A stretch of 41,297 bases of DNA from Robiginitomaculum sp. (GTDB lineage Bacteria; Pseudomonadota; Alphaproteobacteria; Caulobacterales; Maricaulaceae): positions 1 through 41,297 of the forward strand of contig JALSHE010000107.1 in the NCBI GenBank assembly GCA_026982415.1, given 5' to 3'. The translations under genes and the position numbers were made by a program. Shown here one piece after another: positions 4,008 through 32,150 of the stretch. The notes below the pieces were generated by a model. The model was given only the letters and a program-made list of their open reading frames with translations, made no database searches and was not told where the DNA came from. Every line of letters begins with the position of its first letter. The stretch's first letter is position 1.

Positions 4008-4008
4008 A

Positions 4009-5535: not shown

Positions 5536-8500
5536 TTTCCGGTCTTATAAAATGGTCAATAGGCAATCGTTTTTTGATCATACTTTTCGCAATCCTACTT
5601 GCCGTTTGGGGTGGCTATACGGTCAAAAATACACCGCTTGACGCCATACCGGATTTATCCGATGTGCAGGTCATCATCAAAACCACTTATCCAGGACAAG
5701 CTCCACAGGTGGTCGAGGACCAAGTGACTTATCCGCTAACCACGGCAATGCTTGCTGTTCCGGGTGCGGTCACTGTGCGGGGATATTCCTTCTTTAATGA
5801 CAGTTTCGTCTATATTATTTTTGAAGACGGGACGGATTTATATTGGGCGCGTTCGCGTGTTCTGGAATACCTCTCACAAGTCGCGCCCACACTCCCCCCT
5901 GCGGCACGTTCTGCGCTTGGCCCGGACGCAACGGGCGTCGGCTGGGTCTATCAATATGCACTTATAGATAAAACCGGCGGGCATGATCTCTCGCAGCTAC
6001 GTTCCATCCAAGACTGGTTTTTAAAGTACGAACTGCAAACCATTGATGGTGTTTCGGAAGTCGCCACCATTGGCGGCATGGTCAAACAATACCAAGTCGT
6101 AGTTGACCCTGAAAAACTGCGCACATATGGTATCCCGCTTGAAAAAATACGCCTAGAAATCCAGCGCGGTAACCAAGAGACGGGCGGGCGCGTCATAGAG
6201 ATGGCCGAAGCTGAATATATGGTGCGTGCATCGGGCTATATCAAAGGCATTAAAGACCTTGAGGTTATACCCCTCGCTGTCACCGACAAAGGCACGCCGA
6301 TCTTGCTGCGAGACGTAGCACAAATCCGCCTTGGCCCCGAACTACGGCGCGGTATTGGTGAATTGAACGGCGAGGGCGAAGCCGTGGGCGGCGTAATCAT
6401 TATGCGCTACGGCGAAAACGCTATGCGCACGATTGATTTGGTTAAAGAAAAGCTGGAGGAGCTAAAACACAGCCTCCCCGAAGGCGTAGAGATCGTCACT
6501 ACCTATGACCGCTCTAGCCTGATTGAGCGCGCAGTTCACACCTTAAGCGAAAAACTGCTCGAAGAATTCATTGTGGTTCTGATCGTTTGCGCGCTCTTTT
6601 TGTTTCACATTCGTAGCTCCTTGGTGATTTTACTTAGCCTACCGCTTGGGATTCTTGCCGCCTTTATTGTGATGAACATGCAAGGCATCAATGCCAATAT
6701 TATGTCCCTAGGTGGGATTGCCATTGCTATTGGGGCTATGGTGGACGCGGCGATTGTCATGATTGAAAACATGCATAAACATATTGAACGAACACCGCTC
6801 ACTAAAGAAAACCGCTGGGAGATTGTTACCAAGGCCTCCACAGAAGTAGGCCCGGCTCTGTTTTTCTCATTATTGATTATCACCTTTAGCTTCCTGCCGA
6901 TCTTTGCGCTCGAAGCCCAGGAAGGCCGTTTGTTCCACCCGCTCGCTTACACAAAAACTTACGCTATGGCAGGGGCAGCACTTTTATCCGTGACCTTGGT
7001 GCCCGTTCTTATGGGGTATTTTATTCGCGGCAAAATTCTACCTGAACATAAGAACCCGGTGAACTGGCTTTTGATGATGATCTACAAACCTTTCATCAAT
7101 ATCGTGCTGAAAGCACCATGGGCTATGATTTTGGTAGCTTTCATTGTTATGTCCAGTGCGCTCATTCCCTTAAACCGTATGGGCGGTGAGTTTATGCCCG
7201 ATCTGGACGAAGGTGATTTGCTGTATATGCCGAGCGCTTTTCCAGCCGTGTCGGCGGGTAAAATGTCGCAAATACTGCAGCAAACCAATAAACTGATTAT
7301 GACCGTTCCCGAAGTGGAAACCACCTACGCCAAAGCAGGACGCGCCGAAACGGCGACCGACCCTGCGCCTTTGACCATGGTCGAAACCACCATTCGTCTC
7401 AAGCCAAAAGAGGAATGGCGCGCGGGCATGACCATGGAGAAACTCAAAAAAGAGCTGGACGCGAAGGTTCAAATTCCGAGCTTAACCAATGTCTGGATCA
7501 TGCCGATTAAAAACCGCATTGATATGCTAGCTACTGGCATAAAAACCCCTATCGGCATTAAAGTTGCCGGCCCTGACCTCAAAATCATTGGCGAGATTGG
7601 CCAGCAGATCGAAACCGTCGTCAAGGATGTTCCCGGCACATCGTCCGTATACGCTGAGCGCGTCACAGGCGGGCGGTTTATCGACATAGACATTAAACGC
7701 GAAGAAGCAGCGAGGTTCGGGCTTAATGTCGCCGATGTGCAGGCCTTTGTACAAACCGCCATTGGCGGTATGACAGTCGCACAGTCGGTTGAGGGGCTAG
7801 AACGCTACCCGATCAATGTTCGCTATCCGCGTGAATATAGAGACTCGCTGGAACGGCTGCGTAATCTACCCGTCGTGACAAAAACGGGCGCACAAATCCC
7901 GCTGTCGCGGCTTGTTGATATATCAATATCAGGCGGCCCTGGAGTTATCCGCAGTGAAAATGCGCGGCTTAACGGCTGGATATATGTGGATATAGCCGGC
8001 GTAGATATTAGCAGCTATGTGAAAGATGCAAAAAAAGCGGTGGAACAAGTTAAACTGCCCTCAGGGTATTCCCTGTCTTGGTCGGGCCAATATGAATATA
8101 TGGAACGGGCGAAACAAAGGCTCAGTGTTGTGGTTCCGCTAACGCTCGTTATTATTCTCTTGCTGCTCTTCCTAAACTTTAGGCGCATAACACCTGTGCT
8201 CATCATTATGGGGACACTCCCCCTCGCCCTTGTCGGTGGTCTATGGTTCCTTGATATTCTGGACTATAATATGTCAGTTGCCGTCGGCGTTGGCTTTATC
8301 GCGCTTGCGGGCGTATCCGTAGAAATTGGCGTGTTGATGATTGTCTATCTGGAGCAAGCCTTGGACGCACAAATAAAGCTCGCCGAACAAGAAGGCCGCA
8401 AATTGACCAGAGAAGACTTGCGCACCTCGGTTATCAACGGTGCGCTCATGCGGGTGCGCCCTATTATGATGACGGTCGCCGTGGTCATAGCTGGCCTTCT

Positions 8501-8657
8501 CCCGATCATGCTCGGCACGGGTACAGGATCCGAGGTTATGCGCCGCATCGCCGCGCCAATGGTTGGTGGTATGACCAGTGCCACCATTTTGACATTGCTC
8601 GTCATTCCTGCAGCCTTTCTGATATGGAAAAGAATAGCATTGAAATTGCCGAGATAA
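5532..8657 (+). CDS. cusA: CusA-type heavy-metal RND transporter (Cu+/Ag+ efflux)
   Basis: The 1041-residue size and 12-TM layout fit the HME-RND family. The TM4 signature GGIAIAIGAMVDAAIVMIEN is nearly that of E. coli CusA, the class that exports monovalent copper and silver. The periplasmic motif PIKNRIDMLATGIKTPIGIKV contains the CusA-like metal-binding Met region, and Met residues continue through the pore. The ATG overlaps the cusB stop by four bases (ATGA), so the two are translationally coupled. It drives proton-powered export through CusB and CusC from the inner membrane and periplasm. No copy of the window's ECF-type promoter lies upstream of this operon. Confidence 0.95.
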   Translation: MISGLIKWSIGNRFLIILFAILLAVWGGYTVKNTPLDAIPDLSDVQVIIKTTYPGQAPQVVEDQVTYPLTTAMLAVPGAVTVRGYSFFNDSFVYIIFEDGTDLYWARSRVLEYLSQVAPTLPPAARSALGPDATGVGWVYQYALIDKTGGHDLSQLRSIQDWFLKYELQTIDGVSEVATIGGMVKQYQVVVDPEKLRTYGIPLEKIRLEIQRGNQETGGRVIEMAEAEYMVRASGYIKGIKDLEVIPLAVTDKGTPILLRDVAQIRLGPELRRGIGELNGEGEAVGGVIIMRYGENAMRTIDLVKEKLEELKHSLPEGVEIVTTYDRSSLIERAVHTLSEKLLEEFIVVLIVCALFLFHIRSSLVILLSLPLGILAAFIVMNMQGINANIMSLGGIAIAIGAMVDAAIVMIENMHKHIERTPLTKENRWEIVTKASTEVGPALFFSLLIITFSFLPIFALEAQEGRLFHPLAYTKTYAMAGAALLSVTLVPVLMGYFIRGKILPEHKNPVNWLLMMIYKPFINIVLKAPWAMILVAFIVMSSALIPLNRMGGEFMPDLDEGDLLYMPSAFPAVSAGKMSQILQQTNKLIMTVPEVETTYAKAGRAETATDPAPLTMVETTIRLKPKEEWRAGMTMEKLKKELDAKVQIPSLTNVWIMPIKNRIDMLATGIKTPIGIKVAGPDLKIIGEIGQQIETVVKDVPGTSSVYAERVTGGRFIDIDIKREEAARFGLNVADVQAFVQTAIGGMTVAQSVEGLERYPINVRYPREYRDSLERLRNLPVVTKTGAQIPLSRLVDISISGGPGVIRSENARLNGWIYVDIAGVDISSYVKDAKKAVEQVKLPSGYSLSWSGQYEYMERAKQRLSVVVPLTLVIILLLLFLNFRRITPVLIIMGTLPLALVGGLWFLDILDYNMSVAVGVGFIALAGVSVEIGVLMIVYLEQALDAQIKLAEQEGRKLTREDLRTSVINGALMRVRPIMMTVAVVIAGLLPIMLGTGTGSEVMRRIAAPMVGGMTSATILTLLVIPAAFLIWKRIALKLPR

Positions 8658-8849: not shown

Positions 8850-10340
8850 ATGTTGAAAAATTTATTTATTGCATCGTCTGCCGTAGTTTTAGTTGCGTGC
8901 GGCGGCGGGGGCGGCACTACGACACCTCCTCCCCCCCCTCCGCCTCCGCCGCCTGCAAATCAGGCACCTGTGGTTGCTAGCGCTAATGCAGATCAGAACG
9001 GACAAGTCGGGTTTGATATTAATTATGACGCAACACAAGGGGGAAGCACATTCACAGATGCAGACGGTGATACGCTTACAATAACGGTAACATTTAACCC
9101 AGCGGATAACGGCTTGGCTGCGGCGGGCGGAACAATAACTGGTAAACCTCAAAGGCTAAATGATGTCACGGTAACGGTAACAGCCGATGACGGAAATGGC
9201 GGCACGGCTAACGACACATTCATAATAAATGTTGGCGTTGACCAAAATGCCATTCAGGCCAAATTTAATGGAAATATTGACCTTACAAACCTTCCAAATT
9301 ACGAGAATCCTACCATTCCGGCATACATCACCAAGTTAACAGAAAACGGGAACCCCGTAACGGATGCCGGTGCGATTCTTGGCCGTGTGCTGTTTTATGA
9401 TATGGCTCTTTCGATTGATGATACAATATCGTGCGCGTCTTGCCACATACAAGCGCAAGGGTTTAGCGATATAGACGTGGTCAGTAGTGGCGTCTTGGGC
9501 GGTGAAACACGACGGCATTCCATGCGCCTTATCAACACGCAATATGCAAATGAAGTGAACTTCTTTTGGGATGAACGGGCTATTAGTCATGAGGATCAAG
9601 AAACTATGCCTTTGCAGGATTTCAATGAGCACGGGTTTAGCGGCACCAATGGTCGTCCTGACCTAAATGATCTGATTGCCAAGCTTCAGGCGCAGGAATA
9701 TTACCAAGAGCTTTTTCGGTTCGCGTTTTTGGACACAAATATTACGGAGCCGCGACTGCAGCTCGCACTTGCGCAATTTACAAAAAGCATCACCTCATTT
9801 GATAGTAAATATGACACTGGGCGCGCGCAGGTTGCTAATGATACAGATAATTTCCCTAATTTTTCAGTAGGTGAAAACGCAGGAAAAAATTTATTCTTAA
9901 GCCCACCCCCACGCGGTGGAGCAGGATGTTTTCGCTGTCACAGTGCGCCAGAATTTGATATTATGCCAAATATAAATGGTCATAACGGGATTGTCGCAGA
10001 AGCCTCGGATCCAACCTTGGCGGACTTTACCAATACTAGGGCGCCTACGCTTAGAGACGTCGTAAAGCCTGACGGTAGCCCTAATGGTCAAATGATGCAT
10101 AACGGAAGTAAGGCAACACTCAGAAGCGTGATTGACCATTATAACAATATCCCTGTGCCCGCAACTGAACCAGAGCGCACTCAATTTCTGGACAACATTG
10201 ATATGCGGCTCGTCATGATGTCAACCACACCACCGAGTTTGAATTTAAGTGAAGCTGAGAAGCAACAGTTGGAAGATTTCTTGAAAACTTTGACAGGGTC
10301 AAATGTTTACACAGATCCAAAATGGAGTAGCCCATTTTAA
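8850..10340 (+). CDS. Lipoprotein with Ig/cadherin-like domain fused to dihaem cytochrome c peroxidase/MauG domain
   Basis: The 496-residue protein starts with a lipoprotein signal (lipobox LVAC, Cys17) followed by Gly- and Pro-rich linkers. Residues ~37-128 form a putative-Ig/cadherin-like domain (DADGDTLTITVTF, TADDGNGGTANDTF). The rest is a bacterial cytochrome c peroxidase/MauG-like domain with two haem c sites, CASCH at 195-199 and CFRCH at 360-364. Such enzymes reduce peroxide or carry out high-valent haem oxidations in the periplasm; the true substrate is unknown. The gene sits behind an ECF-type promoter candidate and two operator palindromes, which ties it to the metal response. Oxidative protection during copper stress is an inference. 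Confidence 0.85.
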   Translation: MLKNLFIASSAVVLVACGGGGGTTTPPPPPPPPPPANQAPVVASANADQNGQVGFDINYDATQGGSTFTDADGDTLTITVTFNPADNGLAAAGGTITGKPQRLNDVTVTVTADDGNGGTANDTFIINVGVDQNAIQAKFNGNIDLTNLPNYENPTIPAYITKLTENGNPVTDAGAILGRVLFYDMALSIDDTISCASCHIQAQGFSDIDVVSSGVLGGETRRHSMRLINTQYANEVNFFWDERAISHEDQETMPLQDFNEHGFSGTNGRPDLNDLIAKLQAQEYYQELFRFAFLDTNITEPRLQLALAQFTKSITSFDSKYDTGRAQVANDTDNFPNFSVGENAGKNLFLSPPPRGGAGCFRCHSAPEFDIMPNINGHNGIVAEASDPTLADFTNTRAPTLRDVVKPDGSPNGQMMHNGSKATLRSVIDHYNNIPVPATEPERTQFLDNIDMRLVMMSTTPPSLNLSEAEKQQLEDFLKTLTGSNVYTDPKWSSPF

Positions 10341-15715: not shown

Positions 15716-16195
15716 CTAATAACTGGCGTAAATTTCGGATTTGCCGTCTTTGTAGAAGATTATAACATCATAAGGATCAAACCGACCATTTTCCATACCC
15801 GGAGAACCCGATACCATGCCAGGAACCGCGATACCAAGCGCGCCTGCAGGTTTTTCTCTAAGCAGACGTTCAATTTCGCGCATAGGCACATGCCCTTCAA
15901 TCACATAACCACCGATCAGAGTTGTGTGGCAAGATTGTAGCTGGTCAGGTACATTTGCCTCGGTTTTATACTTTTGAAGCTCCTCTGTATCATGGGCTGT
16001 GACCTTATACCCGGCCTTATCAGCATGGACAATCCAGCCACCGCAACACCCACAGGAAGCCGATTTATACACCACCATATCCTTAGACGTAGCGGAAGCC
16101 TCAGGTACCAGAGATGGCACCAAAGACGGTTTAAACATCCAAGCACCTGCACCAATTACCACGACCGCAATCAACCCAATTAAGTACTTTCTCAT
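15716..16195 (-). CDS. DUF411 metal-binding protein
   Basis: The 159-residue protein has an N-terminal anchor or signal (MRKYLIGLIAVVVIGAGAWMF) and the DUF411 core: KSASCGCCGGWIVH, DTEELQKYKTEANVPDQLQS, CHTT..GYVIEGHVP and ERLLREKPAGALGIAVPGMV, ending in DPYDVIIFYKDG. DUF411 proteins occur in copper-resistance operons and bind copper through the CxCC cysteines. A GGAGG ribosome site precedes the ATG and ECF promoter candidate A lies 73 bases further up. It is a periplasmic copper-handling protein by family association. Confidence 0.9.
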   Translation of the reverse strand: MRKYLIGLIAVVVIGAGAWMFKPSLVPSLVPEASATSKDMVVYKSASCGCCGGWIVHADKAGYKVTAHDTEELQKYKTEANVPDQLQSCHTTLIGGYVIEGHVPMREIERLLREKPAGALGIAVPGMVSGSPGMENGRFDPYDVIIFYKDGKSEIYASY

Positions 16196-16326: not shown

Positions 16327-18717
16327 CTAGAGTTTTGCGCTCCGTAATCTGAGTGCATTGCCTATGACAGAGACGGAGGATAAACTCATGGCGGCAGCGG
16401 CTATCATGGGGGATAGCAGGATACCGAGAACCGGATACAACACCCCTGCGGCAACCGGAACGCCAAGCCCATTATATATAAAGGCAAAGAACAGGTTTTG
16501 CCGGATATTCCTCATGGTGGATTTGCTGAGATTGCGGGCGCGGATAATGCCGCGTAGATCACCGCGTAATAAAGTAAAGCCCGCGCTTTCAACGGCCACA
16601 TCTGCGCCTGTTCCCATGGCTATGCCGACATCGGCTTGCGCGAGTGCGGGCGCATCGTTGACACCGTCACCGGCCATTGCAACGACTGCGCCGCTGGCTT
16701 GCAATTCTTTAATCAATGCTGCTTTGTGTTCAGGTAACATATCGGCGCGAACCTCATCAATGCCGAGTTTGTCCGCTACGGCTTGGGCAGTGGTTGCGTT
16801 GTCGCCAGTGGCCATGATGATTTTTAGGCCAGATTTATGTAAATCATCAATGGCTTCTTGAGTTGTCTCTTTAATCGGGTCAGACACGGCTATCAGCCCT
16901 GCGAGTTTGTTATCGCGCGCCACAAACATAGCGGTTTTACCTTCCGCACGCCAAGTGTTGGCTCGCTCGCGCAGTGCTTCTGGGTCAAGACCCAGAGTTT
17001 CCATCATCCGGGCATTGCCAATGGCAATAGCTTTACCGCCTACTTTGCCCTTAACGCCCTTGCCTGTCACAGCCTCAAAATCAGTTGTTTTAGTCAGTTT
17101 AATACCGCGCTTCTCAACACCGCGCACAATTGCTTCCGCGAGCGGGTGTTCACTACCAACTTCAAGCGATGCTGTTGATTTTAGGAAGTCATTTTCGGAC
17201 ACACCATCCACCGTATAAATATCCGTGAGGGCCGGCTTTCCTTCAGTCAGCGTCCCTGTTTTATCGACTATTAATGTATCGACCTTAGCGAAGTTCTCTA
17301 GGCTTTCTGCATTTTTAACGAGGACACCCGCCATTGCACCTTTACCCGTAGCGACCATAATTGACATCGGTGTGGCGAGGCCTAGGGCGCAAGGGCAAGC
17401 TATGATCAGAACAGAAACCGCTGCGATAAGAGCGTAAGCTAGCGCCGGGCTTGGCCCCCAAATTGACCAAGAAATAAAAGCAATAATAGACACCAAGATG
17501 ACGATTGGGACAAAATAAGACGCAACCTTGTCGACCATTTTTTGTATAGGTGCGCGAGAGCGTTGCGCTTCTGCGACCATGTTGACGATTTGTGAAAGCG
17601 TGGTATCGCCGCCAACACGCTCGGCTTTCAGGATGAAACTGCCGGTGCCGTTAATCGTGCCGCCAGTAACATCGTCGTTCTTGTCTTTCTTAATCGGAAG
17701 CGGCTCTCCTGTGAGCATGCTTTCGTCAACAGAGGAACTGCCCTCAAACACTGTGCCGTCGACCGGGACTTTATCGCCGGGACGTACTCGCAAATGATCA
17801 CCGACCTGAACATCCTCAAGCGGAATTTCTTCCTCGCTACCATCCGCCCGCACAATGCGCGCCATTTTTGGCGCAAGATCGAGAAGGGCGCGGATGGCGC
17901 CGCCTGTTTGCTCGCGGGCGCGGAGTTCCAACACTTGTCCTAATAGAACCAAAACGACTATGACAGCGGCGGCTTCGAAATAAATCGCGACCGTACCGTC
18001 TTCATCTCTAAAGCCAGCGGGGAAAATCCCAGGCACAGCAGTGGCTACAACCGAGTATATCCATGCGGCGCCCGTACCCAACGCGATCAGTGTAAACATG
18101 TTAAGGTTACGGCTCTTCACAGAAGCCCAGCCCCGTTTGAAGAACGGCCAGCCACTCCAAAGCACAACGGGGGTCGCAAGGATAAGCTCTATCCAGACAG
18201 AAATCCGCCTTGGAATTAATTTTTCAATCGGCAGGCCAATGAAAGGCCCCATAGCGATGATAAGGACAGGAATGGTCAGAATTAAGCCGATCCAAAACCG
18301 TTTGGTGAAATCATCAAGCTCGGTTGTGTCGGCCTCGCCAGTGACAACGCCAGCAGGCTCGATACCCATGCCGCATATGGGGCAGGAGGAGGCTCTAATA
18401 TCGCGCACTTCCGGGTGCATAGGACAGACATAAATTGTGCCCGAATAACCAGCTGGCACCAAGTCGTATTTTCCGGCGGGTGCATTTTCTGCGTCCGGGT
18501 TTGAGGCGCAACAATCATGGTCGCCATGAGCGCCCTCAGCCGTACCGTCCGTATCCAGTGTCAAAAACATACCGCAAATCGGGCAATTGCTTTTCTCGAC
18601 ATCGCGCACTTCCGGGTGCATGGGACAGGCATAAATATCGCCTTCAAAACCCTCTGGGACTTTGTCGTAATTTTTGGATTTTTCCGCACCGCTTTTGCTG
18701 TCTTTATGATCTTTCAT
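16327..18717 (-). CDS. copA: Cu+/Ag+ P1B-1-type ATPase with two heavy-metal-binding (CPMHP) domains
   Basis: The 796-residue protein opens with two HMBD-type zinc-ribbon-like repeats (CPMHPEV...CPICGM, residues 31-50 and 98-117) instead of a classical HMA domain. Then follow eight TM helices with the P-type ATPase motifs: CPC in TM6 ([11 protein letters not shown]), [26 protein letters not shown] and [11 protein letters not shown]. The last TMs contain YN and MSLSS, the marks of Cu+-specific P1B-1 pumps. It exports cytosolic Cu(I)/Ag(I) to the periplasm. The gene ends the operon started at 20346 (37 bases after the preceding gene), under ECF promoter candidate E. Confidence 0.93.
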
Positions 18718-18754: not shown

Positions 18755-19120
18755 CTAAATAACCAAATCGCCATAGCCCCAAATTATGGTGCCTATGACA
18801 GCCGTAAACTGGGCGTTGATTTCAAGTTTTTGGTGATATGTTGACGGATGTTGCCGGGAAAAATTTACTTCACTCCCTGCCTTATACTTATCTAACTGTT
18901 GATTATGATAGGCGTTGCGGGAAGTCATTAACTGATAACTTATGATGATAGCAACTAACACAAGCATAGAACCGGACCGCGAAAACAATCCGCTTGTAGA
19001 CCTCAGGTCAAAAGCTAATGATAGTAAAGAAAACACCCACGCGCCCACGAGGGCTGCGGTTTGTAGCTTCAATTTTTTACCAGCTATGCGCACTCCACAA
19101 TCCTCATCAAGTGACAACAT
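18755..19120 (-). CDS. Small membrane protein, unknown function
   Basis: This 121-residue protein overlaps the CDF gene end by 14 bases, so the two are coupled. It has two clear TM segments (AALVGAWVFSLLSLAFDL, ~23-40, and SMLVLVAIIISYQLM, ~51-65) and a third possible hydrophobic end (FTAVIGTIIWGYGDLVI). No cysteine motif or known family is recognised. Given its place between a CDF transporter and a Cu-ATPase, it may be a partner of one of them. Confidence 0.65.
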   Translation of the reverse strand: MLSLDEDCGVRIAGKKLKLQTAALVGAWVFSLLSLAFDLRSTSGLFSRSGSMLVLVAIIISYQLMTSRNAYHNQQLDKYKAGSEVNFSRQHPSTYHQKLEINAQFTAVIGTIIWGYGDLVI

Positions 19121-20066
19121 TCAAATCTTCAGCACCCATATCATGGTGCTCCGTTTCTAGCTGCAGCGTTGAGAAATAGAAACCGAATTTATCTTTCAAT
19201 AAACCTTCGGCTTGCCGTAAAATTTCATCCGAGGTTTTTGTATCGAGAATTTGGATATGGGCAGAAAAAATATTTTGGTTTGAAGTTAAAGTCCAAGCGT
19301 GCAGGTGCATAACGCTTTTCACACCGTCAATACCCAACAACGCCTCCTTAACTTTAGAAATATTAACATCCTCCGGCACAGTTTGCATGAAAATATCCAG
19401 GGCGTCTTTTATAATTTTATAGCTGGCCCAGAATAGCACCAAACCAAAGGCCATGCCGAGTATGGCATCAATGGGTGTGTATCCGGTTAGTTTGATAACA
19501 ACGGCGGCAATAATGATCAAAATAGAGCCGACAAAGGTTTGCATGATGTGCCAATAGGCACCCTTCATATTCATATTGGTTTTCTGGCTCTTGAAGATCA
19601 GTTTAAAAGAGATGAACTCTGTAATAAGCCCACCAAAAGCTGCCAAAAACATAATATTGGTCGGGAGTTCAAACTCTTTGTCGAGACGCATATAGCCCAT
19701 ATACAGCACATAAATCGCCATGAGCAGCAAGAACACGCCGTTGAGAAGCGCGCCAATAATTTCGGCGCGTTTGAAGCCATAGGTCGCAGCTATTGTCGCG
19801 GCTTTACCGGAAATCCTGTTGGCAATAAATGCAATCAATATGCCCCCCACGGCAGAGAATGTGTGAAACGCATCTGATATAACGGCTATGGACTGGGAAT
19901 AAAAACCCAGACCAAGTTCGATGATGAAATATATGCCCGTCAGCCAACCGGTAATTTTCAGGATGCGCGCATCCGCATTTATTCCGTGAAAGCTACCGCC
20001 ACTTGATGCGTGCCTAGAGTGTTGCCCTGTTGCCTGCTTAGGCGTGTGTTCAGAATGATCTTGCAT
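19107..20066 (-). CDS. CDF-family cation transporter lacking both transport-site aspartates
   Basis: The 319-residue protein has the six-TM CDF architecture and aligns along its length with ZitB/CzcD: NADARILKITGWLTGIYF opens TM1, TGYTPIDAILG follows TM5, and the C-terminal domain contains GVKSVMHLHAWTLTSNQN. The TM2 site reads SDAFHTFSAVGG (H68, A72) where ZitB has HMLTD, and TM5 reads WHIMQTFVGS (H173, T177) where ZitB has HVLGD. So both His are kept and both Asp of the HD/HD site are lost. The N-terminus is His-rich. It is the second gene of the ECF candidate-E operon, before a Cu-ATPase. Its substrate may differ from Zn(II). Confidence 0.85.
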   Translation of the reverse strand: MQDHSEHTPKQATGQHSRHASSGGSFHGINADARILKITGWLTGIYFIIELGLGFYSQSIAVISDAFHTFSAVGGILIAFIANRISGKAATIAATYGFKRAEIIGALLNGVFLLLMAIYVLYMGYMRLDKEFELPTNIMFLAAFGGLITEFISFKLIFKSQKTNMNMKGAYWHIMQTFVGSILIIIAAVVIKLTGYTPIDAILGMAFGLVLFWASYKIIKDALDIFMQTVPEDVNISKVKEALLGIDGVKSVMHLHAWTLTSNQNIFSAHIQILDTKTSDEILRQAEGLLKDKFGFYFSTLQLETEHHDMGAEDLNVVT

Positions 20067-20106: not shown

Positions 20107-20346
20107 TTAAGCAGGTAACGCTAATTCTTGTGTAATTGCCGCCATATCAAATGCGCCTTGACCCATATATTTCAAAGAGAAATATGATGTGCATAAAACA
20201 CCAAATATGCCACCAATGGTTAAAATCCATCCGGCCCATTTAAGCAATTTGTTATCTTCTTTTTTTGCCTTGTAAAATGCGAACAAGCCGCCTGCAATTA
20301 CTGCCAGCTCTGCTTGGAATACAAGCGCCGCCATAAACATTAACAT
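20107..20346 (-). CDS. 79-residue membrane protein, unknown function
   Basis: AGGAGG lies five bases before the first of three ATGs. The protein has two TM segments (about 5-26 and 37-58) separated by a charged loop (YKAKKEDNKLLKW). I do not recognise it. It is first in the operon with the CDF transporter, the 121-residue membrane protein and the Cu-ATPase, and lies 39 bases from promoter candidate E. Confidence 0.65.
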   Translation of the reverse strand: MLMFMAALVFQAELAVIAGGLFAFYKAKKEDNKLLKWAGWILTIGGIFGVLCTSYFSLKYMGQGAFDMAAITQELALPA

Positions 20347-20439: not shown

Positions 20440-21321
20440 CTAATACCATGCGCGCACACCAATTACCAATTTAACTTTATCTGGCGTGCCGCCGCCTGCG
20501 CGGACGATTTGGGCGGTTTCACCCAAGCTTCTTTGCCACGATGCACCAATATAGGGTGCGAGTTCGCGCTTGAATTCATAGCGTAATCGCAGACCCATAT
20601 TTAGCTTAGTAAATCCTGCCCCGATACCAAGTTCGGGAATGTCTTGGGCGGAAAGCTTGAGGGAGCCACGGGGCTGTAAGATGAGGCGCTGGTTCAGGAA
20701 AAAGTCGTATTCAGCCTCAACACTGGAAGTGAGATCACCTTTATTACTTAAGAAGGCGGCGGCGTCGACTTCAAACCAGTAGGGTGCCAAACCTTGTACG
20801 CCAAGCACAAGATGGGTTCGGCCTTTAGGTTCGAAATCATAGCGCAATCCAGCCTGAACATCCCAGAACCTTGCAATGGGCCTCGACCATAACGCCTGAA
20901 TTTCCGCATCATCAATGGCGTTGTCAGCAAAGCTGTATTTGCCCTCGGTTTTAATCCAAAGTTTGTTCGTGTCTGTGCCGTACCAACCCTGTGCGTCCCA
21001 GATAAAAGTATCTTCGCCGTCGGTGATCTGGGTTTCAAGGCGGTCGGCAATAATGAACGAGGTTTTAAGCCCGCCCATAGTTTCAATCTCGTGAGCGCGC
21101 GCTTTAGCCATAGCCTCTGCACCCCAATATTTATCGGCCATCGACCACGGCTTGTCCGTAGCTTCGGGTGTTTTGGTTTCGTTAGTCTCGGTTTCAACCG
21201 TATCTGCTTTAGCCATATTGTGGCCTGCGTGTGGGTCATTGGCATCTTGTGCCAAGGCAGTATTCGTCGCCGCTAGGAAAGTGATACAGGAGACAAGAAG
21301 CGTTTGTTTCAAAATATTCAT
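20440..21321 (-). CDS. pcoB: PcoB/CopB-type outer-membrane copper resistance protein
   Basis: The 293-residue protein has a signal peptide (to ~24, TALAQ), a His-containing linker (NDPHAGHNMAKAD) and the CopB beta-barrel with family segments such as AQGWYGTDTNKLWIKTEG, VQAGLRYDFEPKGRTHLVLG and GLRLRYEFKRELAPYIG. It ends VRAWY, an aromatic outer-membrane end. Its start overlaps the multicopper oxidase stop by four bases, the usual pcoAB order. It is thought to sequester or pass copper at the outer membrane. Confidence 0.92.
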   Translation of the reverse strand: MNILKQTLLVSCITFLAATNTALAQDANDPHAGHNMAKADTVETETNETKTPEATDKPWSMADKYWGAEAMAKARAHEIETMGGLKTSFIIADRLETQITDGEDTFIWDAQGWYGTDTNKLWIKTEGKYSFADNAIDDAEIQALWSRPIARFWDVQAGLRYDFEPKGRTHLVLGVQGLAPYWFEVDAAAFLSNKGDLTSSVEAEYDFFLNQRLILQPRGSLKLSAQDIPELGIGAGFTKLNMGLRLRYEFKRELAPYIGASWQRSLGETAQIVRAGGGTPDKVKLVIGVRAWY

Positions 21322-23276
21322 TTGCTCATCCCTCCCATATTTTCATGGTTCATTTTTGAGTGGTCCATTTTGGAATGGTCCACCTCCTCCATATCATCCA
21401 TATTCATTTTCATTTTTGAATGATCCATCTTGCTGTGGTCTATCTTCTTCGCCGTGCTGTTTTCATCCTTGGGCAGCAATGAAACTACTTGGAACATACC
21501 CGCCAACATGTGGAAAAACAAATGACAATGAAAAGCCCAGTCACCCACATGATCAGCCGAAATATCCCATGATTGTTTCTCGCCGGGTTTGACAATCATG
21601 GTGTGTTTACGAGGCTTGTGCGTTTTAGAGCCGCCAATGCTGGAGACATTATCAGGAATGACCACATCAAAAAACATGCCGTGCAAATGAATGGGGTGGG
21701 GCATCATGGTGTTGTTGATCAAGGTCAACCGGACACGCTCGCCTTCATAAAATTTAATCGGGTCATAAACATGGGTGAATTTCTCGCCGTTAAATGACCA
21801 CATATAACGCTCCATATTGGAGGTAAGATGCAAGATAATTTCCCGCTCCGGCTCGCGGGTGTCGGGGTTTGGTTCAAGCGAGCGCAGATCCGCATATTTC
21901 AAAGTCCTGTGGCCAACATTCTCCAAGCCAATACCCGCTTCGTGCAGGCGGCTAACCGGCATTTCCGCAATATTGACAACACCCGGCCCACGTTTTATTT
22001 TTTTCTCCAAGACCTTGCGGGGTCCCATATCCATTTTGCCCATGTCCATTTTAGAATGATCCATGCCGGACATATCACCAGACATATCCATCTGGGAGTG
22101 ATCCATAGTGCTATGATCCATGCCCTCCATATCACCGCCGGACATATCCATACTGCTATGATCCATGCCCATGTCTTTCATGGTTAAAAGCGGTTTCTTA
22201 CGAAGTGAAGGCACGCTAGCCCGCATACCAGGGCGCGGGCCGAATGTAGCCACGACCTGCCCCGAACGGTCAATGCTCTCGGCAACAAAAGCAAAAGCTT
22301 TGGCTTCTTTCGGCTCAATAATAACGTCATAGGTTTCCGCCACAGCCATCTGAAACTCGTCAACTTCAAGCGGACGAACATTCAAACCATCGGCTTGCAC
22401 AATCGTCATGGGCAGGCCGGGTATGCGAATATTAAACATGGACATGGAGGCGGCGTTGATAATGCGCAAGCGCACCCGCTCGCCCGGCGTAAAGACACCG
22501 TTCCAGTTATCCTCAGTGCCGCGCCCGTTAATTAGATAAGTATAGGTAGCCCCGGTAATGTCGGAAATATCGGTTTGCGCCATGCGCATTCTGTTCCATT
22601 CAGCACGTTGCTTCATGGTCGCGCCAAAGCCGTTTTTCTTGGCGTCTTTCATAAAGTCGGGCAGTGTGCGTTTTTGGAAATTGAAACCATCAGCCATGCT
22701 CTTAAGCTTGCGAAACAGTTTCATGGGATGGGTGAATGTCCAATCGGAAATCACGATCACATATTCCCGGTCATACTTCACCGGGTCGGTGCCTTTGGGG
22801 TCGATAATCATCGGCCCATACATGCCCAGTGGTTCTTGCAAGCCGGAATGGGAGTGATACCAATAAGTACCGTATTGGGGGACGGAGTATTTATACTGGA
22901 AGGTCTCGCCCGGTTTGATGCCAGGGAATGAAACACCCGGAACACCATCCATATGAAACGGCACCAAGAGGCCGTGCCAATGAATAGAGGTGGTCTCTTT
23001 AAGGGTGTTGGTGACGTTGAGCGTAATCTCTTCGCCTTCGGTAAAGCGAATAAGCGGTGACGGAATAGTGCCGTTGACACCGACTGCCATGCCCGCACGT
23101 CCGTTAATACGCACGGGAAACTCGCCAACCGTCAAATCGTATTCAGTACCCGACAAAGCCGGAATACCGAGATTGCCCTCTGCGGCAGTTCGTGCCCAAG
23201 CGGGGGTAAGGGACGAAAGGCCAAGAAAAGCACCACCGCCAGCCGCAGTTTGTAGTAACCGTCTTCGGTTTAGCAT
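21318..23276 (-). CDS. pcoA: PcoA/CopA-type multicopper oxidase, Tat-exported
   Basis: The 652-residue protein starts with a Tat signal (MLNRRRLLQTAAGG). Copper-ligand motifs are all present: HWHG, WYHSHSG, HPIHLHG and HCHLFFHMLAGM, giving the T1 and T2/T3 centres. Between cupredoxin domains, around residues 365-415, lies a Met/His-rich segment (repeats of MDHS-M and DMSG), and the C-terminus carries another of DHSKM/MDDME type for about 40 residues after the last ligand motif. It oxidises periplasmic Cu(I) to less toxic Cu(II). Promoter candidate B lies 51 bases upstream of the ATG. Confidence 0.95.
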   Translation of the reverse strand: MLNRRRLLQTAAGGGAFLGLSSLTPAWARTAAEGNLGIPALSGTEYDLTVGEFPVRINGRAGMAVGVNGTIPSPLIRFTEGEEITLNVTNTLKETTSIHWHGLLVPFHMDGVPGVSFPGIKPGETFQYKYSVPQYGTYWYHSHSGLQEPLGMYGPMIIDPKGTDPVKYDREYVIVISDWTFTHPMKLFRKLKSMADGFNFQKRTLPDFMKDAKKNGFGATMKQRAEWNRMRMAQTDISDITGATYTYLINGRGTEDNWNGVFTPGERVRLRIINAASMSMFNIRIPGLPMTIVQADGLNVRPLEVDEFQMAVAETYDVIIEPKEAKAFAFVAESIDRSGQVVATFGPRPGMRASVPSLRKKPLLTMKDMGMDHSSMDMSGGDMEGMDHSTMDHSQMDMSGDMSGMDHSKMDMGKMDMGPRKVLEKKIKRGPGVVNIAEMPVSRLHEAGIGLENVGHRTLKYADLRSLEPNPDTREPEREIILHLTSNMERYMWSFNGEKFTHVYDPIKFYEGERVRLTLINNTMMPHPIHLHGMFFDVVIPDNVSSIGGSKTHKPRKHTMIVKPGEKQSWDISADHVGDWAFHCHLFFHMLAGMFQVVSLLPKDENSTAKKIDHSKMDHSKMKMNMDDMEEVDHSKMDHSKMNHENMGGMSK

Positions 23277-26494: not shown

Positions 26495-29400
26495 ATGTTA
26501 AATAAACTCGTAGAATTTTCGCTTCAGTACAAAGCGCTTGTACTGATCACCTTTGCCGTTATCGCCTTTTTGGGCGTGCGGGCAATCAATACTATCCCCA
26601 TTGACGCCTTTCCGGATGTCACTCCGGCGCAGGTCAATATCTATACGGAAAGCCCCGGATTGGCGGCTGAGGACGTAGAGGAGCTTCTGACTTTCCCGAT
26701 CGAATCGGCTATGGCCGGATTGCCGGATGTCAAGGAAATCCGTTCGGTTAGCCTATTCGGTTTGTCTTATGTGGCCGTATACTTCAAAGACGATATGGAC
26801 ATATATTTCGCCCGCCGCCTTGTGGGTGAACGCTTGCAAGAAGTGGGCGACCGTATCCCCGAAGGTTACGGCACACCTGAACTTGGCCCCAATACATCTG
26901 GGCTGGGGCAAGTGTTTTGGTACACTTTGGAGCGTGCCGACGAGAAACTGAACGCTGATATTACCGATATGGATTTGCGCACGCTTCAAGACTGGACTGT
27001 AAGGCTTATTTTGCGCACAGCGCCGGGTGTTGACGATGTAATGTCTTGGGGTGGTCAGGAACGGCAATATCAAGTGCAAATCGATCCGCTCAAGCTGATT
27101 AAATACAATCTTGGTTTCACCGAAGTTATGGAAGCCATTGAGGCCAATAATCGGCAGGTTGGTGGTCAATATATCGATCAAGGATCAGAGCAATTTCTGG
27201 TGCGCGGGCTTGGCTTGGTCAAGAACGAAGCCGATATTGGCGCGATTAAACTCAAGAGCGTGGACGGCACCGCTGTCTATATCCGTGACGTAGCCACTGT
27301 GACCCAAGCGGGCGCACTACGCTTTGGCGCTGTCACCCGCGACGGTAAGGAAGTTGTGCTGGGCATGGCCCTATCGCGCATGGGCGAAAACGCTCAATCC
27401 GTTGTTGAAAACGTCAAAGATAAACTGGAAACTGTCGAGAAAGCTTTGCCGCCCGGCGTTGTCGTCAAGCCGATTTACCAGCGCACAGATTTGGTGGAAA
27501 AGGCCGTCGGCACTGCTGAGAAAGCTTTGATACAAGGCTCCATTCTTATCGCCATTGTGCTGTTTTTGTTTTTGGGAGAAATCCGCTCGGCCATTGTGGT
27601 CACCTCGGCTTTACCACTGGCCATGCTCATCGCCTTTATCATGATGAACCAGATGGGCTTGTCGGCCAACCTTATGTCGCTAGCGGGGCTTGCCATCGGG
27701 ATTGGAATGATGGTGGACGGGGCTGTGGTTATGGTAGAGAACTCATTCCGCATCATGGCGGAGCGAAAATCCGAAGGTAATGGCCCGGTCAACAAAACGG
27801 CGGCGGTTCTTACGGCGGCCAAAGAGGTTGCCAACCCGATGACCTTCGCCATCGCCATTATCATCATCGTGTTCATGCCTTTGTTTACGCTTGAGGGTCT
27901 TGAGGGTAAGTTGTTCAAACCCATGGCTTTTAATATCAGCTTTGCTATGGCTGGGTCATTATTGTTGACCTTGACGTTAATCCCGGTTCTGGCCGCTTTA
28001 ATCTTGAAACCCAAAGAGGAAAAAGACACACTTTTAGTGCGTATTTTAAAGCGTGGCTACCTGCCTTTGCTGGCGTTTTCTCTTAAACGCAAAGCTTTGG
28101 TTATGGGCAGCGCCATTGTTTTGCTCATTGGCTCGCTCAGCCTGTTTCCCTTGTTGGGCAAGGAGTTTATGCCGCAGCTTCAAGAAGGGTCAATCATGTG
28201 GCGGGTATCGTCCATTCCGTCCACTTCGCTGGATCAGTCTATCAAAATCGCCAAAAACATCGAAAATGCCCTGAGCGAATATCCCGAGGTTGAGACAACT
28301 ATCTCTATGATTGGCCGGGCTGAAAAGGGCGAAACGGCGGATGTTAATTATATGGAAGTTTACACCGCCCTCAAACCGCCAGAGGACTGGCCGGGCAATC
28401 GCAATATCACCGAACTGGCCGAAGACATGCGCGAGACGCTAGAGGAAGTGGCACCAACATCAGTGGTCGCTTTCACCCAGCCTATTCAAATGCGGGTGGA
28501 GGAACTTATCTCCGGCGTGCGCGCTACATTGGCGGTCAAACTTTACGGTGAAAACCTGCAAGAACTTGACCGTTTATCTGCCGAAATTAAGGAAGTTTTG
28601 GAAGGTGTCGAAGGCGTTGCCGATTTATCTTTGGAGGCCAATATCGGCAAGCCGCAAATCCGAATCGAAGTGGATCGGGCAGCTTTGGCACGCTACGGTA
28701 TGAACGCCGATGATGTGCTGACCATTGTACGCACGGGTATCGGCAGCGAGCCTGTCAGCACATTAATCGATGGGGTCAAGCGGTTTGAAATCACCACGCG
28801 CTATATTGATAGCGCGAAATCATCCGTGCAGGCCATTGGCAATATCCCTATGCAAACCAGTGAGGGAGCGATTATCCCCTTGTCCAAAGTAGCCAATATC
28901 ACCACCACGGAAGGTTATTCATTTGTCCGCCGCGAGCAATTACAGCGCTATGCGGTGATACAAATGGACGTGCGCGGACGCGATATTGACAGCTTTGTTA
29001 GCGACGCCAACTTTGCTATTCAAGAAGCCGTTGAAATGCCGGTGGGCTATTGGGTTGAATGGGGCGGGGCATTTGAAAACCAACAACGGGCTATGAAACG
29101 GCTCAGCGTCATTGTTCCGATAACGATTTTCTTTATCTTTGTACTTTTATACACGACATTCAATTCCCTGCGTTACGCTACCATGATTATCGCCAATGTC
29201 CCCTTTGCCACTATTGGCGGGCTGGTTGCGCTCTATATCTCGGGGCAATATTTGTCAGTGCCGTCAGCTATCGGGTTTATCGCCGTGTTCGGTGTGGCCA
29301 TGCTCAATGGTATTATCCTGCTTAGCTTTATTAACGAGTTACGCGATAAAGGATTAAGCGTTAGCGAAGCTGTGCGCCAAGGGGCAGAGCTACGCTTACG

Positions 29401-29632
29401 GCCCGTTATGATGACGGCCAGTTCAACCATATTGGGGCTAATCCCCATGCTACTATCCAGCGGTGTCGGGGCCGAAACCCAGCGTCCATTGGCGGCGGTA
29501 GTGGTGGGTGGTTTGATTACGTCAACTCTACTGACACTAATATTATTGCCCTTGATTTACGAATTTGTGGAAACCCGCAGAGAAAGAAAACTGGAGCAGA
29601 AATTACTCAAAAAACAGGAGGTATTATCATGA
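26495..29632 (+). CDS. czcA: CzcA-type heavy-metal RND transporter
   Basis: The 1045-residue protein is a full HME-RND pump. The TM4 signature is GLAIGIGMMVDGAVVMVEN: the Asp and Glu equivalent to D408 and E415 of Cupriavidus CzcA are kept, but the first Asp (D402, in DFG) is Gly here. So it is not a canonical DFG-type Zn/Co/Cd pump, although its partners CzcB (His-rich) and the following ZntA-like ATPase argue for divalent cations. AGGA precedes the ATG; the stop overlaps the PII-like gene start (ATGA). Confidence 0.92.
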   Translation: MLNKLVEFSLQYKALVLITFAVIAFLGVRAINTIPIDAFPDVTPAQVNIYTESPGLAAEDVEELLTFPIESAMAGLPDVKEIRSVSLFGLSYVAVYFKDDMDIYFARRLVGERLQEVGDRIPEGYGTPELGPNTSGLGQVFWYTLERADEKLNADITDMDLRTLQDWTVRLILRTAPGVDDVMSWGGQERQYQVQIDPLKLIKYNLGFTEVMEAIEANNRQVGGQYIDQGSEQFLVRGLGLVKNEADIGAIKLKSVDGTAVYIRDVATVTQAGALRFGAVTRDGKEVVLGMALSRMGENAQSVVENVKDKLETVEKALPPGVVVKPIYQRTDLVEKAVGTAEKALIQGSILIAIVLFLFLGEIRSAIVVTSALPLAMLIAFIMMNQMGLSANLMSLAGLAIGIGMMVDGAVVMVENSFRIMAERKSEGNGPVNKTAAVLTAAKEVANPMTFAIAIIIIVFMPLFTLEGLEGKLFKPMAFNISFAMAGSLLLTLTLIPVLAALILKPKEEKDTLLVRILKRGYLPLLAFSLKRKALVMGSAIVLLIGSLSLFPLLGKEFMPQLQEGSIMWRVSSIPSTSLDQSIKIAKNIENALSEYPEVETTISMIGRAEKGETADVNYMEVYTALKPPEDWPGNRNITELAEDMRETLEEVAPTSVVAFTQPIQMRVEELISGVRATLAVKLYGENLQELDRLSAEIKEVLEGVEGVADLSLEANIGKPQIRIEVDRAALARYGMNADDVLTIVRTGIGSEPVSTLIDGVKRFEITTRYIDSAKSSVQAIGNIPMQTSEGAIIPLSKVANITTTEGYSFVRREQLQRYAVIQMDVRGRDIDSFVSDANFAIQEAVEMPVGYWVEWGGAFENQQRAMKRLSVIVPITIFFIFVLLYTTFNSLRYATMIIANVPFATIGGLVALYISGQYLSVPSAIGFIAVFGVAMLNGIILLSFINELRDKGLSVSEAVRQGAELRLRPVMMTASSTILGLIPMLLSSGVGAETQRPLAAVVVGGLITSTLLTLILLPLIYEFVETRRERKLEQKLLKKQEVLS

Positions 29633-29937
29633 AAGAAGTCAAAGCATATATTCACATGAACCGGGCGGCAGATGTCGTCCGGATGCTTAGGAAAGCCGAG
29701 TTTACCTCGTTAATGCTAGCTGAAGTCAAGGGTACATTTGCAGCCCTTGACGCGCAAGAGCAGGAGTATTCGACGGAACTTGGCGCACGCGTTATCACCG
29801 AAATTAAACTGGAATTGGTTTGCCAAGACGAGCAAGTGGACGAAGTAATCGCCTTGATAAAAGAAAACGCAAAAACTGGGCGCGAAAGATCCGGCGCTAT
29901 TTATATCAGCGATATAACGGCCTATCATCAATTTTAA
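29629..29937 (+). CDS. PII-like signalling protein of the metal-efflux type (PII-NG)
   Basis: The 102-residue protein resembles GlnB/PII fold members: MKEVKAYIHMNRAADVVRML at the start, T-loop region GTFAALDAQEQEYSTELGAR, and GRERSGAIYISDITAYHQF at the end, the B/C-loop region. It is coupled to czcA by ATGA and has a strong AGGAGG site. A PII group linked to heavy-metal RND operons is known (called PII-NG). It probably senses a ligand and adjusts the pump; the ligand is unknown. The classical T-loop Tyr51 context is not clearly conserved. Confidence 0.85.
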   Translation: MKEVKAYIHMNRAADVVRMLRKAEFTSLMLAEVKGTFAALDAQEQEYSTELGARVITEIKLELVCQDEQVDEVIALIKENAKTGRERSGAIYISDITAYHQF

Positions 29938-30014
29938 ACTATTAGCAAATTTCACTTGAACCTTAAGCTACTAGAGGTTTTACGGTGAAGTCAAATTTTG
30001 AAAAGGGGAAAACT

Positions 30015-32150
30015 ATGGGTAATGAATTGACAATGAAAATCGAGGGCATCGATTGCCCGTCTTGCGTGGGACCGATTGAAAAGGCGGTTTGCGCCTTGCC
30101 AAGCGTCAAGGATGCCAGCGTCAATTTTGGCAATGGCAAAATCAAATTGAATTTTGAAGAGGGCGGCAAGGACGTAAAAGCTGTTGAAAAAACCATCAAT
30201 AAGCTTGGCTACAAAATTGCTAAAAACGAAACCGGACACGCGTCCGGTGGACTTGAAGTCTGGTACAAAACCAAAAAAGGCAAGCTTGTGGTTTTCACGG
30301 GTGTCATGCTGGTGTTGGCTACTCTGGTTTTCATATTCGCCAAACATGCAGTTATCAACCTTGGTGGATTCCAGATTGAAGTTTACGAACTTGGCTATGC
30401 CGTAGCCGCTCTGGTCGCACTTATGCCCATGGCGAAAAAAGCCTTCCAGTCAGCGCGGGCAGGTAGCCCGTTCACCATTGATACTCTGGTAACATTCGCT
30501 GTCGTTGGTGCCATCCTTATTCAGGCATCGGTCGAAGCGGCAGTGGTCGTTTTCTTGTTTGCGTTGGGTGAAATGCTGGAAAGCATGGCGACTGCAAAAG
30601 CGCGCAAAAGCGTGCAAGCCTTAGCCGACCTTGCGCCCAAAATGGCGTTTCTAGTTAAGGGCGAAGACGTGAGCGAAGTAGCGGCGGATACTTTGGCTAT
30701 TGGTGATGTTGTTGAAATCCAACCCGGCGGGCGGGTGCCTGCGGACGGGGTGATTGTGTCCGGTTCCACCTCTCTCGACGAAAGCTCTATTACGGGCGAG
30801 AGTATCCCCGTGCGCCGGGGTATTGATGAGGCGGTGTTTGCTGGCGCAATTAACACAGACGGCGTTATCCGCCTGCGCGTTGATAAAACCTCCGAAGACA
30901 ATATGATCGCCCGCATCATGAACCTCGTTGAAGAAGCCGAAGCCGGGAAATCCCCCACGGCGCGTTTCATTGATAATTTTAGTAAATATTATACGCCGGG
31001 CGTATTGCTTGCGGGCATTTTGGTCGGTACGATTGCCCCTTTGTTTTTTGGTGGCGACTGGATGGCGTGGATATATAAAGGCCTGGCCATTTGGCTCATT
31101 GGCTGTCCGTGCGCGCTTGTCCTCTCGACCCCGGCGGCAATTACATCCGGCATTGCAGCGGGCGCACGCAAAGGCTTGCTCATGAAAGGCGGCGTGGTGC
31201 TAGAGGCTATTGGCAAGGTTAGCACCATCGCTTTTGACAAAACCGGCACCCTGACCGCTGGCAAACCAAAGGTTACAGACATACATGTGTTCAAAGGAAC
31301 CGAAGCCGATATGATGTCTTTGGCCGCCGCCGTTGAGGTCACATCTTCTCACCCACTGGCCGAAGCCATTGTCGCCAAGGCCAAACAGCAAGGCGTTAAA
31401 TTTTCCCGCGCCAAAAATGCCAAAGCGCTCTCTGGGCGCGGCGTTGCGGGCCTGATTGGTAAAACTTTGGTGACGATCGCCTCACCGCGTTACGCCGAGG
31501 AAATTTCCAAAATTGACGATGCGGCACGCAAAATATTCCTAGATTTTGAGGAACAAGGCAAGACTCTTGGCGTGGTGGTCAAAGGTAAAACCCTGCTCGG
31601 GGTGATCGCCATGCGCGACGAACTGCGAGAAGATGCAAGAGCCGCCATGGATAAGCTCGACACCATGGACATCAAAACCATCATGCTGACTGGCGACAAT
31701 GCCCGCACCGGCAAAGCCATAGCCGCACAACTCGGTATGGATGTTCAGGCCGAGCTTATGCCCGACGACAAGCTGCAAACTATAGAAGCGTTAAAGCAAA
31801 TGGGTAGCGTTGCCATGGTCGGCGACGGTATTAACGACGCCCCTGCCCTCGCCCGTGCTGACGTTGGCATCGCCATGGGCAGCGGTACTGACGTGGCGCT
31901 GGAAACCGCAGACGCCGCATTGCTACACGAACGGGTAAGCGGCATACCGGCTCTGGTCAATTTGTCCAAAGCGACCATGAAAAACATCCACCAAAACATA
32001 GCCTTTTCGTTAATCTTGAAAGCTGTGTTCCTAGTGACAACCATGATGGGCGCAACATCGCTTTGGATGGCTATATTGGCAGACACAGGTGCAACGGTTA
32101 TCGTGACGCTAAATGCGCTAAGGTTGTTGCGGTTTGATCCTTATAAGTGA
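30015..32150 (+). CDS. zntA: ZntA-type Zn2+/Cd2+/Pb2+ P1B-2 ATPase
   Basis: The ATG at 30015 has AAGGGG nine bases upstream; the GTG at 29985 is an alternative. The 711-residue pump has an N-terminal HMA domain with GIDCPSC, the CPC motif with the P1B-2 signature (GCPCALVLSTPAAITSGIAAGARKG split as CPCALVLSTPAAITSG), DKTGTLTAGKP, SSHPLAEAI, GDGINDAPALARAD, and the final TM with ADTGATVIVTLNALRLL, whose Asp is the P1B-2 metal ligand. It exports Zn(II), Cd(II) and Pb(II) from the cytosol. It follows the PII-like gene by 77 bases and likely belongs to the czc operon. Confidence 0.95.
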   Translation: MGNELTMKIEGIDCPSCVGPIEKAVCALPSVKDASVNFGNGKIKLNFEEGGKDVKAVEKTINKLGYKIAKNETGHASGGLEVWYKTKKGKLVVFTGVMLVLATLVFIFAKHAVINLGGFQIEVYELGYAVAALVALMPMAKKAFQSARAGSPFTIDTLVTFAVVGAILIQASVEAAVVVFLFALGEMLESMATAKARKSVQALADLAPKMAFLVKGEDVSEVAADTLAIGDVVEIQPGGRVPADGVIVSGSTSLDESSITGESIPVRRGIDEAVFAGAINTDGVIRLRVDKTSEDNMIARIMNLVEEAEAGKSPTARFIDNFSKYYTPGVLLAGILVGTIAPLFFGGDWMAWIYKGLAIWLIGCPCALVLSTPAAITSGIAAGARKGLLMKGGVVLEAIGKVSTIAFDKTGTLTAGKPKVTDIHVFKGTEADMMSLAAAVEVTSSHPLAEAIVAKAKQQGVKFSRAKNAKALSGRGVAGLIGKTLVTIASPRYAEEISKIDDAARKIFLDFEEQGKTLGVVVKGKTLLGVIAMRDELREDARAAMDKLDTMDIKTIMLTGDNARTGKAIAAQLGMDVQAELMPDDKLQTIEALKQMGSVAMVGDGINDAPALARADVGIAMGSGTDVALETADAALLHERVSGIPALVNLSKATMKNIHQNIAFSLILKAVFLVTTMMGATSLWMAILADTGATVIVTLNALRLLRFDPYK

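Follow-up and report, generated by a model that had tools for sequence, protein, structure and literature searches.

A clade of cation diffusion facilitators lacking both aspartates of the classical metal site, with a tendency to lie in copper operons

Textbooks attribute transport and selectivity in the superfamily of cation diffusion facilitators (CDFs) to their metal site. In the classification of CDFs into 18 clades (Cubillas; Barber-Zucker 2017) each clade has its own A-site signature, and the quartets named are HD-HD, ND-DD, DD-DD, DD-HD, EN-HD, HH-DH and HD-(E/H)D (PMC5703985). The zinc exporters ZitB/CzcD and ZnT1/3/8 carry HD-HD or HD-ED sites. Simulations of ZnT1 showed that zinc release needed protonation of both Asp (PMC11549101), and a model of the same protein puts N127 less than 10 Å from the zinc, with function lost when this residue is mutated to Lys (PMC6851190). 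The manganese CDF SLC30A10 (ZnT10) is described in a 2026 review as binding Mn at D40, N127, D248 and S252, with E25 also needed (PMC13272668).

The window, as we call the whole stretch of 41,297 nucleotides of Robiginitomaculum sp. DNA that was analysed, carries a CDF gene at 19107..20066, exactly where the original prediction had placed it; the strand, minus, can now be added. Its reading frame is intact and codes for 319 amino acids. The protein scores 214.5 bits with TIGR01297 (cut-off 82.35), 103.3 with PF01545 (cut-off 26.6) and 48.3 with the ZT_dimer model PF16916 (cut-off 26.7). Within NCBIfam the superfamily model alone scores above its cut-off, and the ZitB equivalog NF002923 gives 154 bits, below its cut-off of 408 bits. 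In the predicted model (pLDDT 86.5, pTM 0.76) six long helices are joined by an alpha/beta domain at the C-terminus, and its top structure matches are ZnT and YiiP structures, with a Z of 25.4 for ZnT3 (rmsd 3.2, 293 residues aligned) and of 24.2 for SLC30A10. By its profile matches and its fold of six transmembrane (TM) helices with a dimerisation domain, the protein is a member of the CDF superfamily (TC 2.A.4). It does not have the tetrahedral TM2/TM5 A-site with Asp ligands: HA-HT stands in place of HD-HD, and two of the four ligands are kept. One further CDF match is found in the source genome, with the quartet HDHD.

TM2 of the window protein reads H68-TFS-A72 and TM5 reads H173-IMQ-T177, residue for residue as had been predicted, with both classical aspartates lost and both histidines kept. 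The two helices align with those of ordinary CDFs without a gap (for example SDAFHTFSAVGG against SDAAHMATDALA, and GAYWHIMQTFVGS against RAAYWHVLGDALGS), therefore no shifted Asp is recovered and both are truly replaced. On the minus strand, the kept His68 and His173 are encoded at 19863..19865 and 19548..19550, Ala72 in place of the classical TM2 Asp at 19851..19853, and Thr177 in place of the TM5 Asp, together with Gln176, at 19536..19541. The pattern goes well past anything chance would give: in an alignment of 119 CDFs, 91 are HA-HT and the 28 outgroup proteins are HDED (15) or HDHD (13). A wider set holds 95 HA-HT rows, or 84 distinct sequences, the repeats including L174 (the window protein itself), L091 (the same as L040) and L140 (the same as L061), and 98 other rows, or 97 distinct sequences, with the quartets HDHD (32), HHHD (16), HDED (15), DDHD (9), YDHD (6), ENHD (4), HDEA (4) and rarer ones. 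Position 72 is D, H or N in these 98 ordinary rows and position 177 is D, A or H; A72 and T177 occur in none of them, nor do Q176, M116 or M123.

Twelve residues are invariant in 95/95 family rows: E50, D65, H68, A72, M116, M123, E150, H173, Q176, T177, S181 and D200. Met116 (19719..19721, minus strand) and Met123 (19698..19700, minus strand) both lie in TM3, and the position of the latter is occupied by Glu in 59 of the 98 other rows. Many family-specific residues are common to 62 representatives below 85% identity when these are compared with the 28 outgroup proteins. C-terminal position 298 is His in all 28 outgroup proteins and F (91), M (3) or R (1) in the family rows, and the TM segments hold 0.04 Cys per protein in the family versus 0.83 in other CDFs. 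With ZitB/CzcD and ZnT1/3/8 the family shares the superfamily, the fold, both site histidines, D65, E50, D200 and the C-terminal domain, but it differs from them in A72 and T177 for Asp, E150 for Asn, Met123 for the TM3 Glu and F298 for the His of the C-terminal domain.

The original prediction of an altered metal site was right about the loss of both Asp and the retention of both His, but it missed the gained E150 and the kept D65, S181 and E50. With these residues and the two histidines H68 and H173 in place, the site looks rewired rather than emptied. Glu150 in TM4 (19617..19619, minus strand) is present in 95/95 family rows and 4/98 others, and the same position is N in 61 of the 98 ordinary rows; in a profile alignment it falls on ZnT1 N127. 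By residue offset, D40, N127, D248 and S252 of SLC30A10, together with E25, map to D65, E150, T177, S181 and E50, a mapping derived from residue numbering together with the alignment to ZnT1, which for N127 assumes that SLC30A10 and ZnT1 are numbered alike in this part. Asp65 (TM2, 19872..19874, minus strand) and Ser181 (TM5, 19524..19526, minus strand) are thus the counterparts of D40 and S252. Under this offset mapping two of the four residues of the shifted Mn site of SLC30A10 are kept in the family, D65 and S181, with Glu150 at the place of Asn127 and Thr177 at the place of Asp248; His68 stands where SLC30A10 has Asn43. From these correspondences we infer a relocated metal site in the HA-HT family. 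Since an acid has been gained and D65, S181 and E50 are kept, a softer metal does not follow automatically.

The sole other rows with E150 are the four HDEA rows, which, like the family, are without the TM5 Asp. Unlike the family, they keep the TM2 Asp, carry Glu at positions 65 and 173 and have none of the rest of the signature. These rows (L185, L187, L206 and L210) belong to a distant CDF group in which the alignment is less sure, and they are perhaps a second, independent trade of the TM5 Asp for a TM4 Glu.

In a quick maximum-likelihood tree built with the four quartet columns masked, a single branch of length 2.88 (SH-aLRT 100) separates 52 family representatives from 24 others. Judged by their sequences, HA-HT CDFs form one sharply bounded clade, as the original prediction had suggested a broad alignment might reveal. 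The two observations it had named as speaking against it, Asp ligands at shifted positions and a scatter of the variant among pseudogenes, are both absent, the damaged copies seen being two, L022 (fragmentary) and L093 (apparently frameshifted). The 91 HA-HT proteins comprise 79 loci from a scan of reference genomes, the window, 8 plasmid loci and 3 other genome loci, the seemingly frameshifted L093 included. The reference scan took the best 80 of 211 relatives, of which 79 were HA-HT and one was the fragmentary L022; among its six baits one (ISDAFHTF) contains H68 and none contains A72, H173 or T177, and bait-free searches of the phylum and the class agree with it. In the phylum, 4 of 398 genomes, the source genome among them, hold a protein of at least 50% identity, the next among the matches listed being at 35%. 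In the class, 4 of 385 genomes, again counting the source genome, reach E 1e-55 or better. The 72,556 plasmid records give 50 matches at E 1e-60 or better, 31 of them typed conjugative, and 861 at 1e-20, with identity dropping among the matches listed from 47.8% to 34.7% or less. No intermediate form was seen among the 98 other rows (by A72 and T177) or among the phylum and plasmid matches listed (by identity), a set of matches that rarer intermediates between the clade and ordinary CDFs could escape.

Record titles place the family in Pseudomonadota, Actinomycetota, Bacteroidota, Acidobacteriota, Nitrospirota, Campylobacterota, Calditrichota, Patescibacteria and Woesearchaeota, among others. 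The named cultured strains are Pseudomonadota and Actinomycetota and most of the other records are metagenome-assembled genomes (MAGs) or bins, so phylum labels that depend on a single locus may be binning errors. An MCO-CDF-ATPase gene order, in which MCO stands for multicopper oxidase, recurs nearly identically in Ochrobactrum/Brucella, Paracoccus, Gemmobacter and Chelatococcus records (L048, L050, L051, L052, L054, L055, L060, L062 and L081), and four of the CDFs in these loci are identical over residues 35-305, which together with the recurring order suggests recent transfer.

HA-HT is not among the quartets named in the part of the text of the 18-clade A-site study covered here (PMC5703985). 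The Co/Ni CDF gene dmeF is reported to be induced by Cu in Sinorhizobium meliloti (PMC6044271). A term search of PMC10141476 and PMC8478169, both on copper resistance in marine bacteria, gave no match to the CDF terms tried. Among the open-licence papers listed by the literature searches, as judged from title and opening of the abstract, no CDF of the HA-HT kind was found tied to copper. DmeF, which we take to be HHHD-like, would by its quartet belong to a different clade. To our knowledge, a CDF that exports Cu(I) or Ag(I) driven by protons would be the first of its kind.

The minus strand of the window reads MCO, CopB, a 79-aa protein, the CDF, a 121-aa protein, a Cu-ATPase, a DUF411 protein and a DUF2231 protein, and a single transcript is likely. 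The CopA-type MCO (21318..23276; TIGR01480, 792 bits, cut-off 478.95) overlaps by 4 nt the gene of the outer-membrane copper resistance protein CopB (20440..21321; PF05275, 286 bits). Next upstream of the CDF lies the gene of the 79-aa small membrane protein (20107..20346), which has no family; the 121-aa small membrane protein (18755..19120), with a sub-cut-off NCBIfam match only, is encoded by a gene that overlaps the CDF gene by 14 nt. They are followed by the copper-type P1B ATPase with two HMBD motifs (16327..18717; TIGR01511, 608.8 bits, cut-off 397) and the DUF411 protein (15716..16195; PF04214). The two small membrane proteins and the Cu-ATPase had been named before as operon mates of the CDF and are indeed there, but that list was incomplete, as MCO, CopB and DUF411 lie on the same strand. 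As general parts of the system the two small proteins were rejected: Pfam holds no family for either, and relatives of the 79-aa protein lie near 5/91 family loci and of the 121-aa protein near 2/91, the 91 taking in the broken L022 and the repeats L136-L138. A promoter scan gave 10 sites, no excess over the 13.7 in shuffled sequence, and terminator-like sites numbered 14 versus 8.8 in shuffles (sd 2.4). An RND pump region is divergent from the CDF operon. The plus strand carries a metal-resistance region at 2757-8657, 8850-10340 and 26495-32150, with two RND pump genes, an outer-membrane efflux gene, a MauG-type di-haem peroxidase and a second P-type ATPase with an HMA domain.

Across the family, a copper gene lies on the same strand within 150 nt of the CDF gene at 18 of 59 non-redundant loci versus 0/26 controls (p=0.0009), the controls being 17 chromosomal and 9 plasmid ordinary CDFs, unmatched by phylum to the family. 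The 59 loci leave out the broken L022, the repeats L136-L138 and the window's own locus, and for the plasmid controls 9 ordinary CDFs were taken from the 10 among the plasmid matches listed, H58 being left out. A copper marker (Cu-ATPase, MCO, CopB or DUF411) was found within 8 kb at 42/59 family loci and 0/17 chromosomal controls; against ordinary plasmid CDFs (4/9) the same proximity gives p=0.14. The 8-kb link is therefore partly a metal-island effect, and the link to copper rests on same-strand adjacency. CueR was dropped from these counts because its query also matched 3 controls, which is what one would expect of a general MerR regulator. At 17 of the 59 loci, some of them short, none of the four markers lies within 8 kb. 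The tie to copper operons anticipated in the original prediction thus holds in that a same-strand copper neighbour is commoner than for ordinary CDFs, but it is a tendency and not a rule.

Twelve of the 18 adjacent cases include an ATPase, of CPH type in L024 and L070 and with no Cu motif found in L059. Most full-length neighbouring ATPases carry the CPC and N....P.AAG motifs; CPH replaces CPC in L019, L024, L029, L032, L056 and L070, which we take to mark the CopB-type P1B-3 class. Among eight annotated plasmid relatives, seven have MCO, DUF411, CopB, cueR or a P-type ATPase in the stretch inspected, and the remaining one, L086, has a transposase and a gene for alcohol dehydrogenase as its neighbours. 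On roseobacter plasmids a gene for a VTT-domain protein is often beside the CDF gene, in some cases accompanied by one for a DUF6010 or DUF302 protein (VTT neighbours at L083, L084, L088, L089, L068, L071 and L074).

A gene for an EamA-family (DMT) transporter is near the CDF gene at 22 of 91 family loci. In 20 of the 22 it lies downstream on the same strand, and several of these genes abut or overlap the CDF gene. Copper markers are also present at 15 of the 22 and absent from 7. The EamA loci include L018, L019, L021, L023, L066, L070, L071, L073, L089 and L090. At loci without a copper marker the neighbours include EamA, methyltransferase, acyltransferase, ion-channel, cytochrome c and SnoaL proteins.

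Our preferred reading, to which we give a probability of roughly 0.4, is that a CDF with a rewired site uses proton coupling to export a cation related to copper, Cu(I) or Ag(I) being the likeliest, through the relocated site. What is observed behind it are the residues, which are invariant, their confinement to one clade, a model with the CDF fold and the operon setting. With Asp removed from TM2 (A72) and TM5 (T177), Glu added on TM4 (E150) and His68, His173, Asp65, Glu50 and Ser181 kept, the protein would still work by proton-coupled alternating access. The His pair together with D65 and E150 would bind the ion outside the classical site, displaced outwards by roughly one turn of the helix. 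Compared with HD-HD CDFs the site would be short of one acid (D65 and E150 versus D65, D72 and D177), which would suit a monovalent ion. This ion would pass from the cytoplasm to the periplasm, where the neighbouring MCO and CopB would act on copper. It is a rather doubtful proposal that the clade is specialised for the monovalent soft ion Cu(I) or Ag(I), with acidic ligands moved from TM2/TM5 to TM4, as a proton-driven exporter beside Cu-ATPases that hands copper to periplasmic oxidases. Several observations count against export of Cu(I) or Ag(I): D65 and E150 are hard ligands and the TM segments are nearly free of Cys, 17 loci have no copper marker within 8 kb, the 8-kb proximity is not clearly above that of plasmid controls, and EamA genes also accompany the CDF at loci without copper markers. 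Moreover, the zinc release simulated in ZnT1 needs the two Asp that the family has lost, which counts against proton-driven export.

The strongest rival is an exporter of divalent metal, be it Mn, Zn, Fe, Cu(II) or another, whose shifted site resembles that of SLC30A10 (D65, E150 and S181, plus E50) and whose gene moves along with metal islands. Binding of a divalent ion could still be achieved with two acids and two His, the family site maps onto the Mn site of SLC30A10, and ordinary plasmid CDFs are also found within 8 kb of copper genes. We nevertheless regard it as unlikely, as the same-strand adjacency to copper genes was not shared by any control and both D47 and D248 are present in SLC30A10, whereas the family lost both Asp. 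The loss of both classical Asp, the replacement of His298 in every family row and the direct operon partnership with ATPase and MCO would also fit a CDF-like protein that serves in the membrane as a scaffold or sensor, binding copper for delivery to the ATPase or assisting in the loading of the MCO. This non-transport role is improbable, however, as all TM helices and the polar residues E50, D65, E150, H173, S181 and D200 are strongly conserved, which suggests a working cavity, and members also occur without an ATPase or MCO nearby. More improbable still is the export of a different cation or of a metal-ligand complex together with the EamA-family transporter; the downstream, sometimes overlapping EamA genes speak for such a partnership, but most of those loci also carry copper markers and in the window no EamA gene lies between MCO and ATPase. 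As for an artefact of misalignment, frameshift or gene decay, the damaged L022 and L093 are what could be cited for it, and its likelihood is negligible: misalignment was rejected on the ungapped TM2 and TM5, and a pseudogene or lone oddity on the clade itself and on the 84 distinct sequences from isolates, plasmids and MAGs that have the same residues.

The preferred reading of a rewired exporter aside, a natural and widespread clade without both Asp and with a TM4 Glu offers a ready test of how selectivity and proton coupling are built in CDFs, and whether a site can move, as asked for SLC30A10, becomes testable outside animals. Our results also hint that copper resistance in many environmental bacteria, plasmids included, involves a class of transporter that has not been credited with copper and that the generic annotation 'cation diffusion facilitator family transporter' conceals.
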